64,000 bases of DNA. Origin: Gemmatimonadales bacterium. Lineage in GTDB: Bacteria; Gemmatimonadota; Gemmatimonadetes; Gemmatimonadales; GWC2-71-9. This document shows positions 8,034 through 12,604 of the stretch, one piece after another; the stretch's first letter is position 1; each line of letters begins with the position of its first letter. The stretch spans positions 124,001-188,000 of the forward strand of contig DASUJH010000060.1 in NCBI GenBank assembly GCA_036279355.1, read 5' to 3'. The notes under the pieces were generated by a model. It worked only from the letters and a program-made list of their open reading frames with translations, was not told the DNA's origin and did no database searches. A program made the translations under genes and the position numbers.

Positions 8034-9492
8034 CGCCCCTGTCGCCGTTGCCCTGACCGACGCCCGCGCGCGCGGCGCCGGTTGCGAGCCGGCGGAGACT
8101 CTCGTCGCGGCCCACCACGGCCAGCAGCTCGTTTACCGGCTCGGATACGGTGGTGCCGGTGAGCGCGACGCGGATGGGCTGCAGCAGATCGCCCAGCTTG
8201 ACGCTGTGGCTCACGGCGGCCCCACGGAGCAGCTCGATCAGCGCATCGGCGTGCCACGCGCTCGGTGTGACCGGCTCGAGCGTTTCGCGCGCCAGCGCGA
8301 GGCTCGCGGCGAACTGCGGGCCAAGCTTGCGGGCGAATTGCGCGCCCTTCTCGTCGAGCACCACGCGCGAGGCGTCCAGCCGCACCGCCACGCGCTCGGC
8401 GAGCTGCACGACCGTGCGCGCGCGGCCCTTCACCGCATCGATGAGCGGGCGAAGGTCGCGGCCCGCGTCGGGCACGCCGAGGCGGTCGAGCTCCCGCCGC
8501 ACGGGCGCGACGAGCGCGCCGGCCGGCGTCATCGAGAGATACTCGCCGTTCATCCACTCCAGCTTGGCAGTGTCGAAGACGGCGGCCTTGCTCTGGATGC
8601 CCTCGAGTGAAAAGAGCGCGATCAGCTCATCCTCGGGCAGGATCTCGCGGTCGCCGCCGGGCGACCAGCCCAGGAGCGCCAGGAAGTTGCGCATCGCGGC
8701 CGGGAGAATGCCCTGGTTCCGATACTCGCCCACCGCGGTGGCGCCGTGGCGCTTGGAGAGCTTGCGGCCGTCGGGGCCCAGGATCATCGGCACGTGCGCG
8801 AACACCGGCGGCGCGTGCCCCAGCGCCTGATAGAGCAGGATCTGCTTTGGCGTATTCGAGATGTGGTCGTCGCCCCGGATCACGTGGGTGATGGCCATGG
8901 CGATGTCGTCGGAGACGACCGCCAGGTTGTAGATGGCCGAGCCGTCGCTCCGGAGGATGACGAAGTCGTCCAGCTCCTGGCTCAGCACGCTGATCCGCCC
9001 GTGCACCGCGTCCTCCCAGGAAATCTCCTCGTCGGGCACGAGGAAGCGGATGGCGAATGGGTCGCCGGCGGCGAGGCGGGCCGCGACGTCGTCGGGCGAG
9101 AGTCGGTAGCAGCGCCGGTCGTAGCGGAACGTCTGCCCGGCGCGCTCGGCGTCGGCGCGGCGCGCGTCCAGCTCCTCACGGGTGCAGAAGCAACGGTACG
9201 CGCGGCCCTCGGCCAGGAGGCGCTCCGCATCCGCGCGGTGGCGCTCGGCGTGCGCGCCCTGGAAGTAGGGCCCCTCGTCCCAGGCGATGCCGAGCCACGT
9301 GAGGCCGTCGAGGATGACGCGGGTGTGCTCCTCCGTGCTCCGCTCGCGGTCGGTGTCCTCGATGCGCAGGACGAACGTGCCGCCGCTGCCGATAGCCGCC
9401 GCGCGGCGGGCGAGGAGCCAGTTGAAGAGGGCCGTGCGGGCGCCGCCCACGTGGAGCGAGCCGGTGGGCGAGGGAGCGAAGCGGACGCGCAT
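8017..9492 (-). CDS. gltX: Glutamate--tRNA ligase
   Basis: Class I aminoacyl-tRNA synthetase charging tRNA-Glu (or both tRNA-Glu and tRNA-Gln). It is 491 residues, the usual length. The start at ATG 9492 gives the canonical opening MRVRFAPSPTGSLHVGGART, which contains the HIGH-type motif. The KMSKS-type loop is KLSKRHG. TACGCT lies six bases before the ATG, with no SD and no room for a leader, so a leaderless message is likely. The tRNA-Ser(GCU) gene is immediately upstream on the same strand and may share a transcript. The gene end overlaps the CapA-like gene. Confidence 0.97.
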   Translation of the reverse strand: MRVRFAPSPTGSLHVGGARTALFNWLLARRAAAIGSGGTFVLRIEDTDRERSTEEHTRVILDGLTWLGIAWDEGPYFQGAHAERHRADAERLLAEGRAYRCFCTREELDARRADAERAGQTFRYDRRCYRLSPDDVAARLAAGDPFAIRFLVPDEEISWEDAVHGRISVLSQELDDFVILRSDGSAIYNLAVVSDDIAMAITHVIRGDDHISNTPKQILLYQALGHAPPVFAHVPMILGPDGRKLSKRHGATAVGEYRNQGILPAAMRNFLALLGWSPGGDREILPEDELIALFSLEGIQSKAAVFDTAKLEWMNGEYLSMTPAGALVAPVRRELDRLGVPDAGRDLRPLIDAVKGRARTVVQLAERVAVRLDASRVVLDEKGAQFARKLGPQFAASLALARETLEPVTPSAWHADALIELLRGAAVSHSVKLGDLLQPIRVALTGTTVSEPVNELLAVVGRDESLRRLATGAARAGVGQGNGDRGDGGAA

Positions 9493-9504: not shown

Positions 9505-9517
9505 AGCGGTTGGGGAG

Positions 9518-9608
9518 CGGAGTGGGAGGGATTCGAACCCTCGATAGAGGCTTTCACCCCTATAACGGTTTAGCAAACCGCCGCCTTCAGCCTCTCGGCC
9601 ACCACTCC
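9518..9608 (-). tRNA. tRNA-Ser(GCU)
   Basis: A 91-base class II tRNA on the minus strand. It has a seven-pair acceptor stem (GGAGTGG with CCACTCC), discriminator G, an anticodon stem around TTTGCTAAA giving anticodon GCU, a long variable arm, and a T-loop GGTTCGAATCC. CCA is not encoded. It reads the serine codons AGC/AGU. Confidence 0.96.
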
Positions 9609-9826: not shown

Positions 9827-11476
9827 ATGAGGTGTCTGTGGCGGTATCTGGTTGCGGTGGGGATCGCGGTGGTGGCGGTGCCGCCGGCGTGGGCCCAGAA
9901 CGACTGGACGACATATGGAGGCAACGCGTGGAATCAGCGGTGGTCCACGCTCACCGGTATCAATACGAGCAACGTAGCCCGCCTGGTGCCCCGGATGACC
10001 TTTCAGACGGGCGTGAGCAAGCTCGGGTCCTTCGAGAACACCCCGATCGTCGACAACGGCATCATGTACGTGACGACGCCTTACAGCGAGGCGGTGATGG
10101 CCTACGACCTCAAGACGTCCAAGGAGCTGTGGCGTCAGGAGCTCAAGCCCGGCCCCACGATCCAGTGTTGCGGACCGGTCAATCGGGGCGTCGCCATCGG
10201 CGGGGGCAACGTCTTCATCGGCACGCTCGACGCCCGCCTGCTCGCGTTCGACGCGAAGACCGGCGACCCGAAGTGGCAGGCGGAGGTGGCGGATCCCACC
10301 CTCGCCTACAGCATCACGATGGCGCCGCTCGTGGTGGGCGACAACGTCATCATCGGCGTGTCCGGAGGTGAGTATGGCATCCGGGGCAACCTTACCGCGT
10401 ACAACGTGTCGACGGGCAAGCAGGTGTGGCGCTGGTACTCGATCCCGGCGCCGGGGGACGACCCGGTAGCCAAGAACGGGTGGTGGGGCACGTGGCAGAC
10501 CAAGGCGGAGAACGCCGACCTGCACCGCGATATCTCCAAGGAAAAGGCGGACAGCGCCAAGTACGCCGACGCCTGGCAGAAGGGCGGAGGCGGCGTCTGG
10601 ACGACGCCGTCGTACGACAAGGCCTCCAATACGATCTTCGCCACGGTCGGCAATCCGTCGCCGGATCTCGACGGCAGCGTCCGTCCGGGCGACAATCTCT
10701 TTACCGACTGCATCGTGGCGATCGACGCTACGACCGGGAAGACCAAGTGGTACTACCAGACGGTGCCCCACGACGTGTGGGACCTCGACGCCACGTCGCC
10801 GTCCGTGGTGGCGGAGCTCAACGGGAAAAAGGTCGTAATCCAGGCCGGCAAGACCGGTTGGGTGTATGTGGTCGACGCGGCCACGGGCAAGCTGGTGCGC
10901 AAGAGCGAGAACTTCGTCCCGCAGGAGAACATGTTCGCGCTGCCGACACCCGACGGCACCCGGATGCTGCCGGGGGCCAACGGCGGGTCCGAGTGGTCGC
11001 CGATCTCGCTCGATCCCAAGCTCAACTACGTATTCGTCGCCGGCCTCCACCAGCCCATGCACTACAAGACCCATCCCGCTCCCTGGGAGAAGGGGCGTCT
11101 CTGGCTGGGCTCGGCGTTCATCGCGATCCCCGGGGAGCCGCAGTACGGGCTGTTCTCCGCGGTCAACCTCGCGACTGGCAAGATCGCCTGGCAGAACAAG
11201 GTGGATCAGCCGATGATGGGCGGCTCACTCGCCACCGCCGGCGGCCTCGTCTTCACCGGGGAAGGCAACGGCAACTTCGACGCCTTCGACGCGAAGAGCG
11301 GCAAGCTCCTCTGGCAATACCACGCCGGAGCCGGGTGCAATTCGACACCGATGAGCTTCCAGATGGGGGGCGAGCAATTCGTCGCGGTCGCGTGCGGCGG
11401 CAATTTCCAGCTCAGCTATCCCCTCGGCGATGCCGTGATGGTCTTCGGCCTCCCGAAGCCGTGGTCGGGCCAGTGA
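9827..11476 (+). CDS. PQQ-dependent alcohol/methanol-type dehydrogenase, predicted lanthanide type
   Basis: A 549-residue secreted quinoprotein of the eight-bladed propeller family, which oxidises alcohols or aldehydes in the periplasm using PQQ. A signal peptide ends near AWAQ (about residue 23). The vicinal cysteine pair over PQQ is C114-C115 (QCCGPVNRG). Metal and catalytic ligands fit E182 (GGEYGIRG), N276 (VGNPSPD) and D319. Asp 321, two residues after the catalytic Asp (WDLDAT), is the extra ligand associated with lanthanide-dependent XoxF/PedH-type enzymes; calcium enzymes carry Ala or Ser there. There is no cytochrome c domain. SD GGAGGGG precedes ATG 9827. The stop overlaps the cupredoxin start as GTGA. 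No PQQ biosynthesis genes are in the window. Confidence 0.93.
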   Translation: MRCLWRYLVAVGIAVVAVPPAWAQNDWTTYGGNAWNQRWSTLTGINTSNVARLVPRMTFQTGVSKLGSFENTPIVDNGIMYVTTPYSEAVMAYDLKTSKELWRQELKPGPTIQCCGPVNRGVAIGGGNVFIGTLDARLLAFDAKTGDPKWQAEVADPTLAYSITMAPLVVGDNVIIGVSGGEYGIRGNLTAYNVSTGKQVWRWYSIPAPGDDPVAKNGWWGTWQTKAENADLHRDISKEKADSAKYADAWQKGGGGVWTTPSYDKASNTIFATVGNPSPDLDGSVRPGDNLFTDCIVAIDATTGKTKWYYQTVPHDVWDLDATSPSVVAELNGKKVVIQAGKTGWVYVVDAATGKLVRKSENFVPQENMFALPTPDGTRMLPGANGGSEWSPISLDPKLNYVFVAGLHQPMHYKTHPAPWEKGRLWLGSAFIAIPGEPQYGLFSAVNLATGKIAWQNKVDQPMMGGSLATAGGLVFTGEGNGNFDAFDAKSGKLLWQYHAGAGCNSTPMSFQMGGEQFVAVACGGNFQLSYPLGDAVMVFGLPKPWSGQ

Positions 11477-12057
11477 CGGGTCGCGTCGCGCTCGCGGTGG
11501 TCGCCAGCATGGCGGCCGCCGCCTGCGCGCCGGCCGTGCGCGCACAGCAGCAGGCAGGCGCACAGCAGCCGGCAGGCGCACAGCAGCCGGCCATCGACTC
11601 TTCGTGGCTATCGTCCGACGCCGCGGCGAAGTCGGCGAAATTCCAATTGATCGCCGGGCTCACCACCTTGAACGGGGCGCTCAACTTCAATGGCTTCGAC
11701 GACGGCGGCCTGGAGCTCGTGATTCCGGTGGGTTGGAAGGTGGAGATGGACTTCGTCAATCACGACGGTATGCTGCCGCACAGCGCGCTGGTCGTGGCCG
11801 GCACGCTTCCGATCGACCCGGCGCCCACCCAACCCGCGATCCCCCGCGCCTACACGGTGCGGGTGGCCGAGGGGATTCCGCCGGGTGGCAAGGACATGAT
11901 GAAATTCACGGCCGATTCCGCTGGAAGCTATTTCATCGTATGCGGCGTGCCGGGACATGCCGTGGCCGGGATGTGGATCCGGCTCCGGGTCAGCAAGACC
12001 GCAACGAAACCGAAAATGGAGGCCACACCGAAACCGACCGACGAACGAGGACGATGA
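11473..12057 (+). CDS. Sulfocyanin-like type 1 blue copper protein
   Basis: A 194-residue cupredoxin starting at GTG 11473, overlapping the PQQ dehydrogenase stop (GTGA). After a hydrophobic N-terminus (lipoprotein-like AAAAC at C18, or cleavage after VRA) comes a Gln/Ala/Pro linker built from an 18-base tandem repeat. The fold then shows NGALNFNGFDDGGLELVIPVGW, the first copper ligand H103 (MLPHSALVV), and the C-terminal loop C157-GVPG-H162-AVAG-M167. These are the ligand pattern and N-terminal layout of sulfocyanin / SoxE-type proteins rather than plastocyanin. Coupled translation suggests it takes electrons from the dehydrogenase in place of cytochrome c. The C-terminus is Lys/Pro-rich. 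Confidence 0.88.
   Translation: MTGRVALAVVASMAAAACAPAVRAQQQAGAQQPAGAQQPAIDSSWLSSDAAAKSAKFQLIAGLTTLNGALNFNGFDDGGLELVIPVGWKVEMDFVNHDGMLPHSALVVAGTLPIDPAPTQPAIPRAYTVRVAEGIPPGGKDMMKFTADSAGSYFIVCGVPGHAVAGMWIRLRVSKTATKPKMEATPKPTDERGR
11545..11590 (+). repeat. 18-bp tandem repeat, 2.6 copies
   Basis: Units at 11545-11562 and 11563-11580 plus a 10-base partial copy encode Gln-Gln-x-Ala-Gly-Ala repeats, the linker between membrane anchor or signal and cupredoxin domain. The unit is a multiple of three, so copy changes would alter linker length without shifting frame. Confidence 0.7.
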
Positions 12058-12181: not shown

Positions 12182-12604
12182 GTGGAGCACGCGATGGGTG
12201 CAGGTGGACGACCTTCCGGCCCGACGCCGCGACCGCCCGGCGGTTACACCATTCTCGTAGTGGACGACGAGGCCGTCGTCCGGCAGCTCGCCTCGCGCAT
12301 GCTTACCCAGACCGGCTTCCGCGCGGTCGAGGCGAGCCATGGGCGCGAGGCGCTCACCGCGCTGGAACAGGACCCGATCGGCATCCACCTCGTGCTCACC
12401 GACGTGAAGATGCCGGGGATGAACGGGCGCGAGCTGGGCCGGCAGGTGGAGCGGCGCTGGCCGGCCAAACCGGTGCTCTACATGTCTGGGTTCGCGAGCG
12501 AAGTGTTCCAGGGCGGGTTGCTGGAGGCGGCGGCCCCGTTCATCGCGAAGCCGTTCACCCAGGAGGATCTCGCGGCCAAGGTGCGAGGGCTGCTCGGCGC
12601 ATAA
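12182..12604 (+). CDS. Single-domain response regulator (receiver only)
   Basis: A 140-residue protein made of one CheY-like receiver domain after a 20-residue Gly/Pro-rich leader. Acidic pocket VVDDEAV, phosphoacceptor D74 in LVLTDVKMPGMNG, a Ser in LYMSGF, and Lys in FIAKPF are all present, so it should be phosphorylatable. No output domain exists. GTG 12182 is used here; ATG 12194 in the same frame is equally possible, and neither has a clear SD. The hybrid histidine kinase at 12863, whose phylogenetic type usually works with such stand-alone receivers, is the obvious partner. A second stand-alone receiver is at 45902. Confidence 0.88.
   Translation: MEHAMGAGGRPSGPTPRPPGGYTILVVDDEAVVRQLASRMLTQTGFRAVEASHGREALTALEQDPIGIHLVLTDVKMPGMNGRELGRQVERRWPAKPVLYMSGFASEVFQGGLLEAAAPFIAKPFTQEDLAAKVRGLLGA

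Follow-up and report, generated by a model that had tools for sequence, protein, structure and literature searches.

The window studied here, a stretch of 64,000 nucleotides from the genome of a Gemmatimonadales bacterium, carries two genes on its forward strand that share four bases. The first (positions 9827 to 11476) encodes a soluble periplasmic PQQ-dependent dehydrogenase of 549 amino acids, as judged from Pfam and structure comparison; the second (11473 to 12057) encodes a sulfocyanin/rusticyanin-like blue copper protein of 194 amino acids, identified by Pfam, alignment and fold comparison and hereafter called the cupredoxin. At the junction, the GTG start codon of the cupredoxin gene, at 11473, lies over the TGA stop codon of the dehydrogenase gene (11474 to 11476). 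The resulting GTGA overlap (11473 to 11476) is the one described in the original prediction, which was made from the window sequence alone. Both reading frames are conserved as proteins, which rules out a chance open reading frame or a frame artefact.

The dehydrogenase and its metal site

The dehydrogenase matches the PQQ family PF01011 with 273.7 bits (cut-off 26.7), in agreement with the predicted identity, and scores 456 bits against TIGR03075, slightly below the cut-off of 480. A signal peptide, MRCLWRYLVAVGIAVVAVPPAWA, was judged by eye to be present. The PQQ propeller, vicinal cysteines and catalytic aspartate of quinoprotein alcohol dehydrogenases were all found. The cysteine pair so typical of these enzymes, Cys114-Cys115 (10166 to 10171), is invariant in the dehydrogenase alignment, as are the predicted metal ligands Glu182 (10370 to 10372) and Asn276 (10652 to 10654) and the triplet Asp319-Leu-Asp321 (10781 to 10789), all on the forward strand. 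The triplet comprises the catalytic aspartate and an extra, lanthanide-type aspartate and aligns with WDYDG of XoxF (6dam). All the residues that a lanthanide-type site calls for (Glu182, Asn276, Asp319, Asp321) are thus present, and the extra aspartate two residues past the catalytic one leads us to predict a site of this type. The genome also encodes pqqE (522.6 bits, cut-off 381).

An AlphaFold2 model (mean pLDDT 82) has PedH (6zcv) and XoxF (6dam) as its nearest folds in the PDB. The protein resembles the XoxF/ExaF/PedH enzymes (TIGR03075) in its modelled eight-bladed propeller, its Cys-Cys pair and its Glu/Asn/Asp-x-Asp site; it differs from them in that identity to the PedH and XoxF structures is only about 30-34%, that it falls outside the XoxF clade of its own genome, and that the cupredoxin gene replaces the adjacent XoxG/cytochrome c gene. 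An assignment as XoxF methanol dehydrogenase is ruled out by the tree, in which the XoxF genes of this genome fall in a clade apart (100/100). A quinohemoprotein (type II) alcohol dehydrogenase is likewise ruled out, as the reading frame contains no CxxCH and ends at residue 549.

The cupredoxin and its copper site

The cupredoxin, too, has a signal peptide (judged by eye). Its match to the SoxE/sulfocyanin family PF06525 is 71.9 bits against a cut-off of 21, and with its H-C-H-M ligands it shows the features of a type-1 copper protein of the SoxE/sulfocyanin domain. The candidacy as a true sulfocyanin was rejected: the score against the NCBIfam equivalog TIGR03094 is 65.2 bits, far below the cut-off of 168.4. 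"Sulfocyanin-like" is therefore the furthest justified name, and it is the level at which the original prediction had placed the protein. The ligand set put forward there proved exact, all four residues being invariant in 11 homologues: His103 (11779 to 11781), Cys157 (11941 to 11943), His162 (11956 to 11958) and the axial Met167 (11971 to 11973), all on the forward strand. The nearest solved relatives are rusticyanins, and the ligands match those of rusticyanin both in sequence (1a8z, E 8e-7) and in the predicted fold. As the model is only moderate (pLDDT 74, with residues 65-75 poor), no geometry was drawn from it.

The genome has a second sulfocyanin-like gene, on contig C9, two genes from a NirK-like gene (L019, 5122 to 7849), and in Deinococcus sp. 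NW-56 (L194) a sulfocyanin-like gene comes immediately after nirK.

Recurrence of the gene pair

Among 102 genomes of the family, 38 have the cupredoxin and 26 have close dehydrogenases. The dehydrogenase-cupredoxin order, which the original prediction had proposed to look for elsewhere, occurs in many genomes, in some with the identical four-base overlap. The two genes are adjacent and in the same direction in six genomes of the set (G008, G014, G015, G020, G023 and G085), and in four others (G024, G025, G026 and G028) a single opposite-strand gene stands between them; the cupredoxin of G013 is degraded. Beyond this family, the pair was found in another family of the order (G258), in the same class (G381), in Azospirillum canadense and in an Acetobacteraceae metagenome-assembled genome (MAG). 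Nearly all relatives with named records are soil Gemmatimonadetes MAGs, and the window's genome is itself a soil MAG of the Gemmatimonadota type.

In a tree of 52 rows, the window dehydrogenase belongs to a 35-row clade (99/97), and the partner labels are clustered. A copper partner lies nearby in 24 of the 35 rows, one of the cupredoxins being degraded. These partners comprise 13 cupredoxins, seven divergently transcribed cupredoxins, three CuA subunits and one plastocyanin-like protein. None of the 35 rows has a cytochrome c downstream, and the cytochrome-linked rows all fall outside the clade. In the other 11 rows, mostly of the f2 family, no copper partner was found within the stretch seen, and proximity is thus not obligatory. 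The closest dehydrogenase found is that of G258 (83% identity), with weak support for its grouping as sister to the window protein (83/31). A plasmid search gave relatives of the dehydrogenase that are linked to cytochromes and sulfocyanin-like genes that are linked to NirK; the matches opened, which were part of all and included two unannotated records, held no new dehydrogenase-cupredoxin pair. Taken as a pairing of genes, the association of dehydrogenase and cupredoxin is well supported by comparative genomics. Two other genes recur downstream of these dehydrogenases: one for a secreted protein of about 135 amino acids that has no Pfam match (L088, 9344 to 9757, and homologues), and one for a porin-like protein.

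Cytochrome-linked sister enzymes

Two paralogues of the dehydrogenase are encoded in the same genome. The one on contig C16 (54% identity) is directly followed by a monoheme cytochrome c and the one on C25 (50%) by a diheme cytochrome c; the C16 junction shows the same GTGA-type four-base overlap. Plasmids of Ideonella, Caballeronia and Alloyangia carry relatives that likewise have an annotated c-type cytochrome next to them. Such sisters share about 48-54% identity, the enzyme-then-carrier order and sometimes the overlap itself with the window pair, and differ in having a cytochrome c, mono- or diheme, as the carrier. With cytochrome c downstream of both paralogues and plasmid relatives, the cupredoxin occupies the carrier's place, and the presence of copper protein or cytochrome c behind paralogous dehydrogenases is, as read from the genes, a natural partner swap within one genome.

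The original prediction had also called for a check for a cytochrome c partner. Closer than about 5 kb to the pair, no c-type cytochrome gene was found in the window, and most of the pair-bearing and CuA-linked clusters checked likewise showed none. An unfiltered six-frame scan with positive controls detected no CxxCH in open frames of at least 90 codons, either in the 14 kb surrounding the pair, over the full length of the stretches from G258, G053 and G047, or in the two proteobacterial loci; in G028 it returned one frame of 115 codons, far from the genes in question and judged spurious. About ten other cytochrome-c domains are encoded in the window's own genome. XoxF-XoxJ-cytochrome c sets are present on C16 and C28 (L014, L016), one of them followed by cytochrome oxidase genes, and the organism thus also has ordinary cytochrome-linked dehydrogenases of the lanthanide type.

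A CuA heme-copper enzyme beside the dehydrogenase

In G053 and G047, dehydrogenase orthologues with 80-82% identity are directly followed by genes for a CuA subunit II (COX2) and a heme-copper subunit I (COX1), and the same is true of a 64% orthologue in G028. In G053 and G028 the gene after that of subunit I is CtaG-like; in G047 the contig breaks off soon after subunit I begins. In the G258 cluster, one strand carries CtaG, COX1, COX2 and the genes of a response regulator and a GAF kinase. The opposite strand has genes for a TTHB210-like protein, the dehydrogenase, the cupredoxin, plastocyanin-like and AhpD-like proteins and GAPDH, with about 3 kb between the CuA heme-copper enzyme and the pair. 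Close homologues of this COX1 (55-100%) occur in seven genomes, and all seven carry a dehydrogenase of at least 60% identity, as against 30 of 395 genomes overall (hypergeometric 7e-9, a value not corrected for kinship).

The COX2 sequences contain the CuA ligands in the form C-x-E-x-C-x3-H-x2-M. The cross-linked active-site tyrosine of subunit I is replaced by asparagine in all ten COX1 homologues aligned; the conventional oxidases of the window's genome keep the tyrosine. Asparagine at this position is the residue of sNOR enzymes (PMC8756737, Table A4). By its asparagine and CuA marks, the clustered enzyme would be of the sNOR type and a putative NO reductase. The replacement in ten of ten homologues makes an oxidase less likely as the terminus of the path, and it weakens the case for the adjoining COX1 as an ordinary oxidase.

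An sNOR-like subunit I was found in 13 of 395 Gemmatimonadota genomes in a search of the phylum, and a 2022 survey of the phylum reported putative NorBC and NosZ (PMC9426454). In G389, a 39-residue C-terminal fragment of the dehydrogenase lies beside the same sNOR-type genes (L180, 6312 to 6428); a separate contig (L187) encodes a 69% dehydrogenase, with genes resembling those of cbb3-type oxidases about 2 kb away.

Two sites in one genome

In the window's own genome, COX2-COX1-CtaG is intact on a different contig, C32, its COX1 being 80% identical to that of G258 and 67% to that of G053. Beside it (L101, about 8380 to 8815), the TTHB210-like, plastocyanin-like and GAF-kinase genes survive only as decayed fragments. 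The same contig carries nosZ (826 bits, cut-off 625). The pair itself sits between a tRNA-Ser(GCT) gene (9517 to 9608, reverse strand), which gene-order comparison marks as the left border of an apparent insertion site, and a response regulator gene (12182 to 12604, forward strand; Pfam, gene-order comparison), which marks the right border and is outside the electron-transfer unit. In G047 and G042, gltX, tRNA-Ser(GCT) and the response regulator, which flank the pair in the window, are found together without it. The simplest reading of these gene orders is that the dehydrogenase and cupredoxin genes apparently moved as one out of the NO-reductase-like cluster and came to lie at the tRNA-Ser gene.

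Discussion

We propose that the dehydrogenase, with its lanthanide-type site, would oxidise some alcohol or aldehyde in the periplasm. The reduced PQQ would then hand its electrons singly to the co-produced cupredoxin, and not to a cytochrome c, and the cupredoxin would pass them on to a CuA-bearing membrane enzyme. The likeliest acceptor would be the sNOR-type heme-copper enzyme on C32, which in relatives is clustered with the dehydrogenase/cupredoxin set. Electrons would thus travel from substrate to PQQ, type-1 copper, CuA, a heme-copper centre and finally NO. We infer every arrow of this path from gene order and conserved residues, together with its direction and partners, the metal, the substrate and NO as acceptor; since the sNOR-type genes lie on a separate contig in the window's genome, the CuA step rests on the relatives.

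The cupredoxin is quite probably the physiological acceptor of the dehydrogenase. For the sNOR-type enzyme as main terminus, we see the chances as evenly balanced. The model as a whole, a translationally coupled redox pair delivering electrons from PQQ through cupredoxin and CuA to NO, seems to us somewhat favoured. It is a more tentative suggestion, which we hold with less than even confidence, that in soil Gemmatimonadota the lanthanide-type oxidation of alcohols is linked to the reduction of NO by a cytochrome-c-free path of PQQ, type-1 copper and CuA, which arose by exchange of cytochrome c for cupredoxin behind the dehydrogenase gene. The copper route from alcohol oxidation envisaged in the original prediction is supported by the carrier slot, the conserved pair, its apparent move as a unit and the negative search for c-type cytochrome genes near it; what changes is the likely terminus, where in place of a known sulfocyanin-accepting oxidase we would put the CuA heme-copper enzyme with the sNOR asparagine that adjoins the orthologues in G053, G047 and G028.

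The cupredoxin might, all the same, deliver the electrons of the dehydrogenase to an O2-reducing oxidase, along the lines of the original prediction: either one of the three other COX1 enzymes or, if it works as an oxidase, the C32 enzyme. In Sulfolobus an oxidase is served by sulfocyanin, and in haloarchaea one of the ba3 type is served by halocyanin; the genome has three conventional COX1 genes (one on C49, two on C16) with HPEVY/HPWVY motifs, and the C32 COX1 has a ba3 oxidase as its nearest relative in the PDB. However, the conventional COX2 at C16 has its own fused cytochrome c domain, no conventional oxidase was found as the immediate neighbour of one of the clade's copper-paired dehydrogenases, and the heme-copper enzyme that does cluster with the dehydrogenase is the one without the active-site tyrosine. 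We regard this scheme as unlikely. The dehydrogenase could instead use a cytochrome c encoded elsewhere, and the cupredoxin would then simply be co-expressed with it, as a carrier of copper or for protection. The soluble PQQ alcohol dehydrogenases known so far have a cytochrome c as acceptor, for example cytochrome cL (PMC9728263), and both the ten or so cytochrome-c domain genes and the orthologues with no adjoining cupredoxin are compatible with such a partner. It is nonetheless improbable, given that the cytochrome-linked paralogues carry their cytochrome in exactly the cupredoxin's position, that the pair occurs repeatedly in separate families and phyla and has apparently moved together, and that the cupredoxin keeps all four type-1 copper ligands.

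We find it distinctly improbable that other copper N-oxide reductases, NirK-like or NosZ, are the main recipients of electrons from the cupredoxin, the dehydrogenase being one of several donors. The proximity of a sulfocyanin-like gene to the NirK-like gene on C9, the nirK-sulfocyanin-like order in Deinococcus and the presence of nosZ on C32 all point that way; but a cupredoxin of the window type was not seen beside nirK or nosZ, and the C9 NirK-like protein scores 168 against a nirK equivalog cut-off of 296.

In the usual description, soluble PQQ alcohol dehydrogenases are linked to cytochrome c. Transfer from a quinoprotein to a cupredoxin, such as amicyanin, is already known in kind: methylamine dehydrogenase and the azurin-accepting quinoprotein dehydrogenases give electrons to a type-1 copper protein, and amicyanin is encoded nearby. 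Those systems differ from the present one in having TTQ or quinohemoprotein enzymes, a carrier that is not sulfocyanin-like and no sNOR-type link. The window cupredoxin shares with sulfocyanin (SoxE) and rusticyanin the fold, the ligand set, the C-x4-H-x4-M spacing and the SoxE Pfam domain; unlike sulfocyanin, it is a secreted bacterial protein well below the equivalog cut-off, paired with a PQQ enzyme and outside a SoxM oxidase cluster. The putative sNOR-type enzyme resembles NorSY-type sNOR in its CuA subunit II and its asparagine-bearing subunit I and differs in its clustering with a CtaG-like protein, a PQQ dehydrogenase and cupredoxins. We know of no established donor for sNOR-type enzymes. 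In the literature searched, limited to sources outside subscription, we found no such pair or link. If confirmed, what is new would be that a lanthanide-type PQQ dehydrogenase has a dedicated partner of the sulfocyanin-like kind, in a cluster with an sNOR-type enzyme. Small-alcohol oxidation in soil would then be tied directly to N2O production, and the matched cytochrome- and copper-linked members in one genome would amount to a natural experiment on carrier choice by quinoproteins.

A further variation on the copper site was seen at L087-L093, where a related cupredoxin has glutamate in place of the axial methionine (CGVPGHALGGEY/EW) and its gene is transcribed divergently to an MFS gene and to a dehydrogenase orthologue of 73-78% identity. 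A natural Met-to-Glu type-1 copper site would be unusual.
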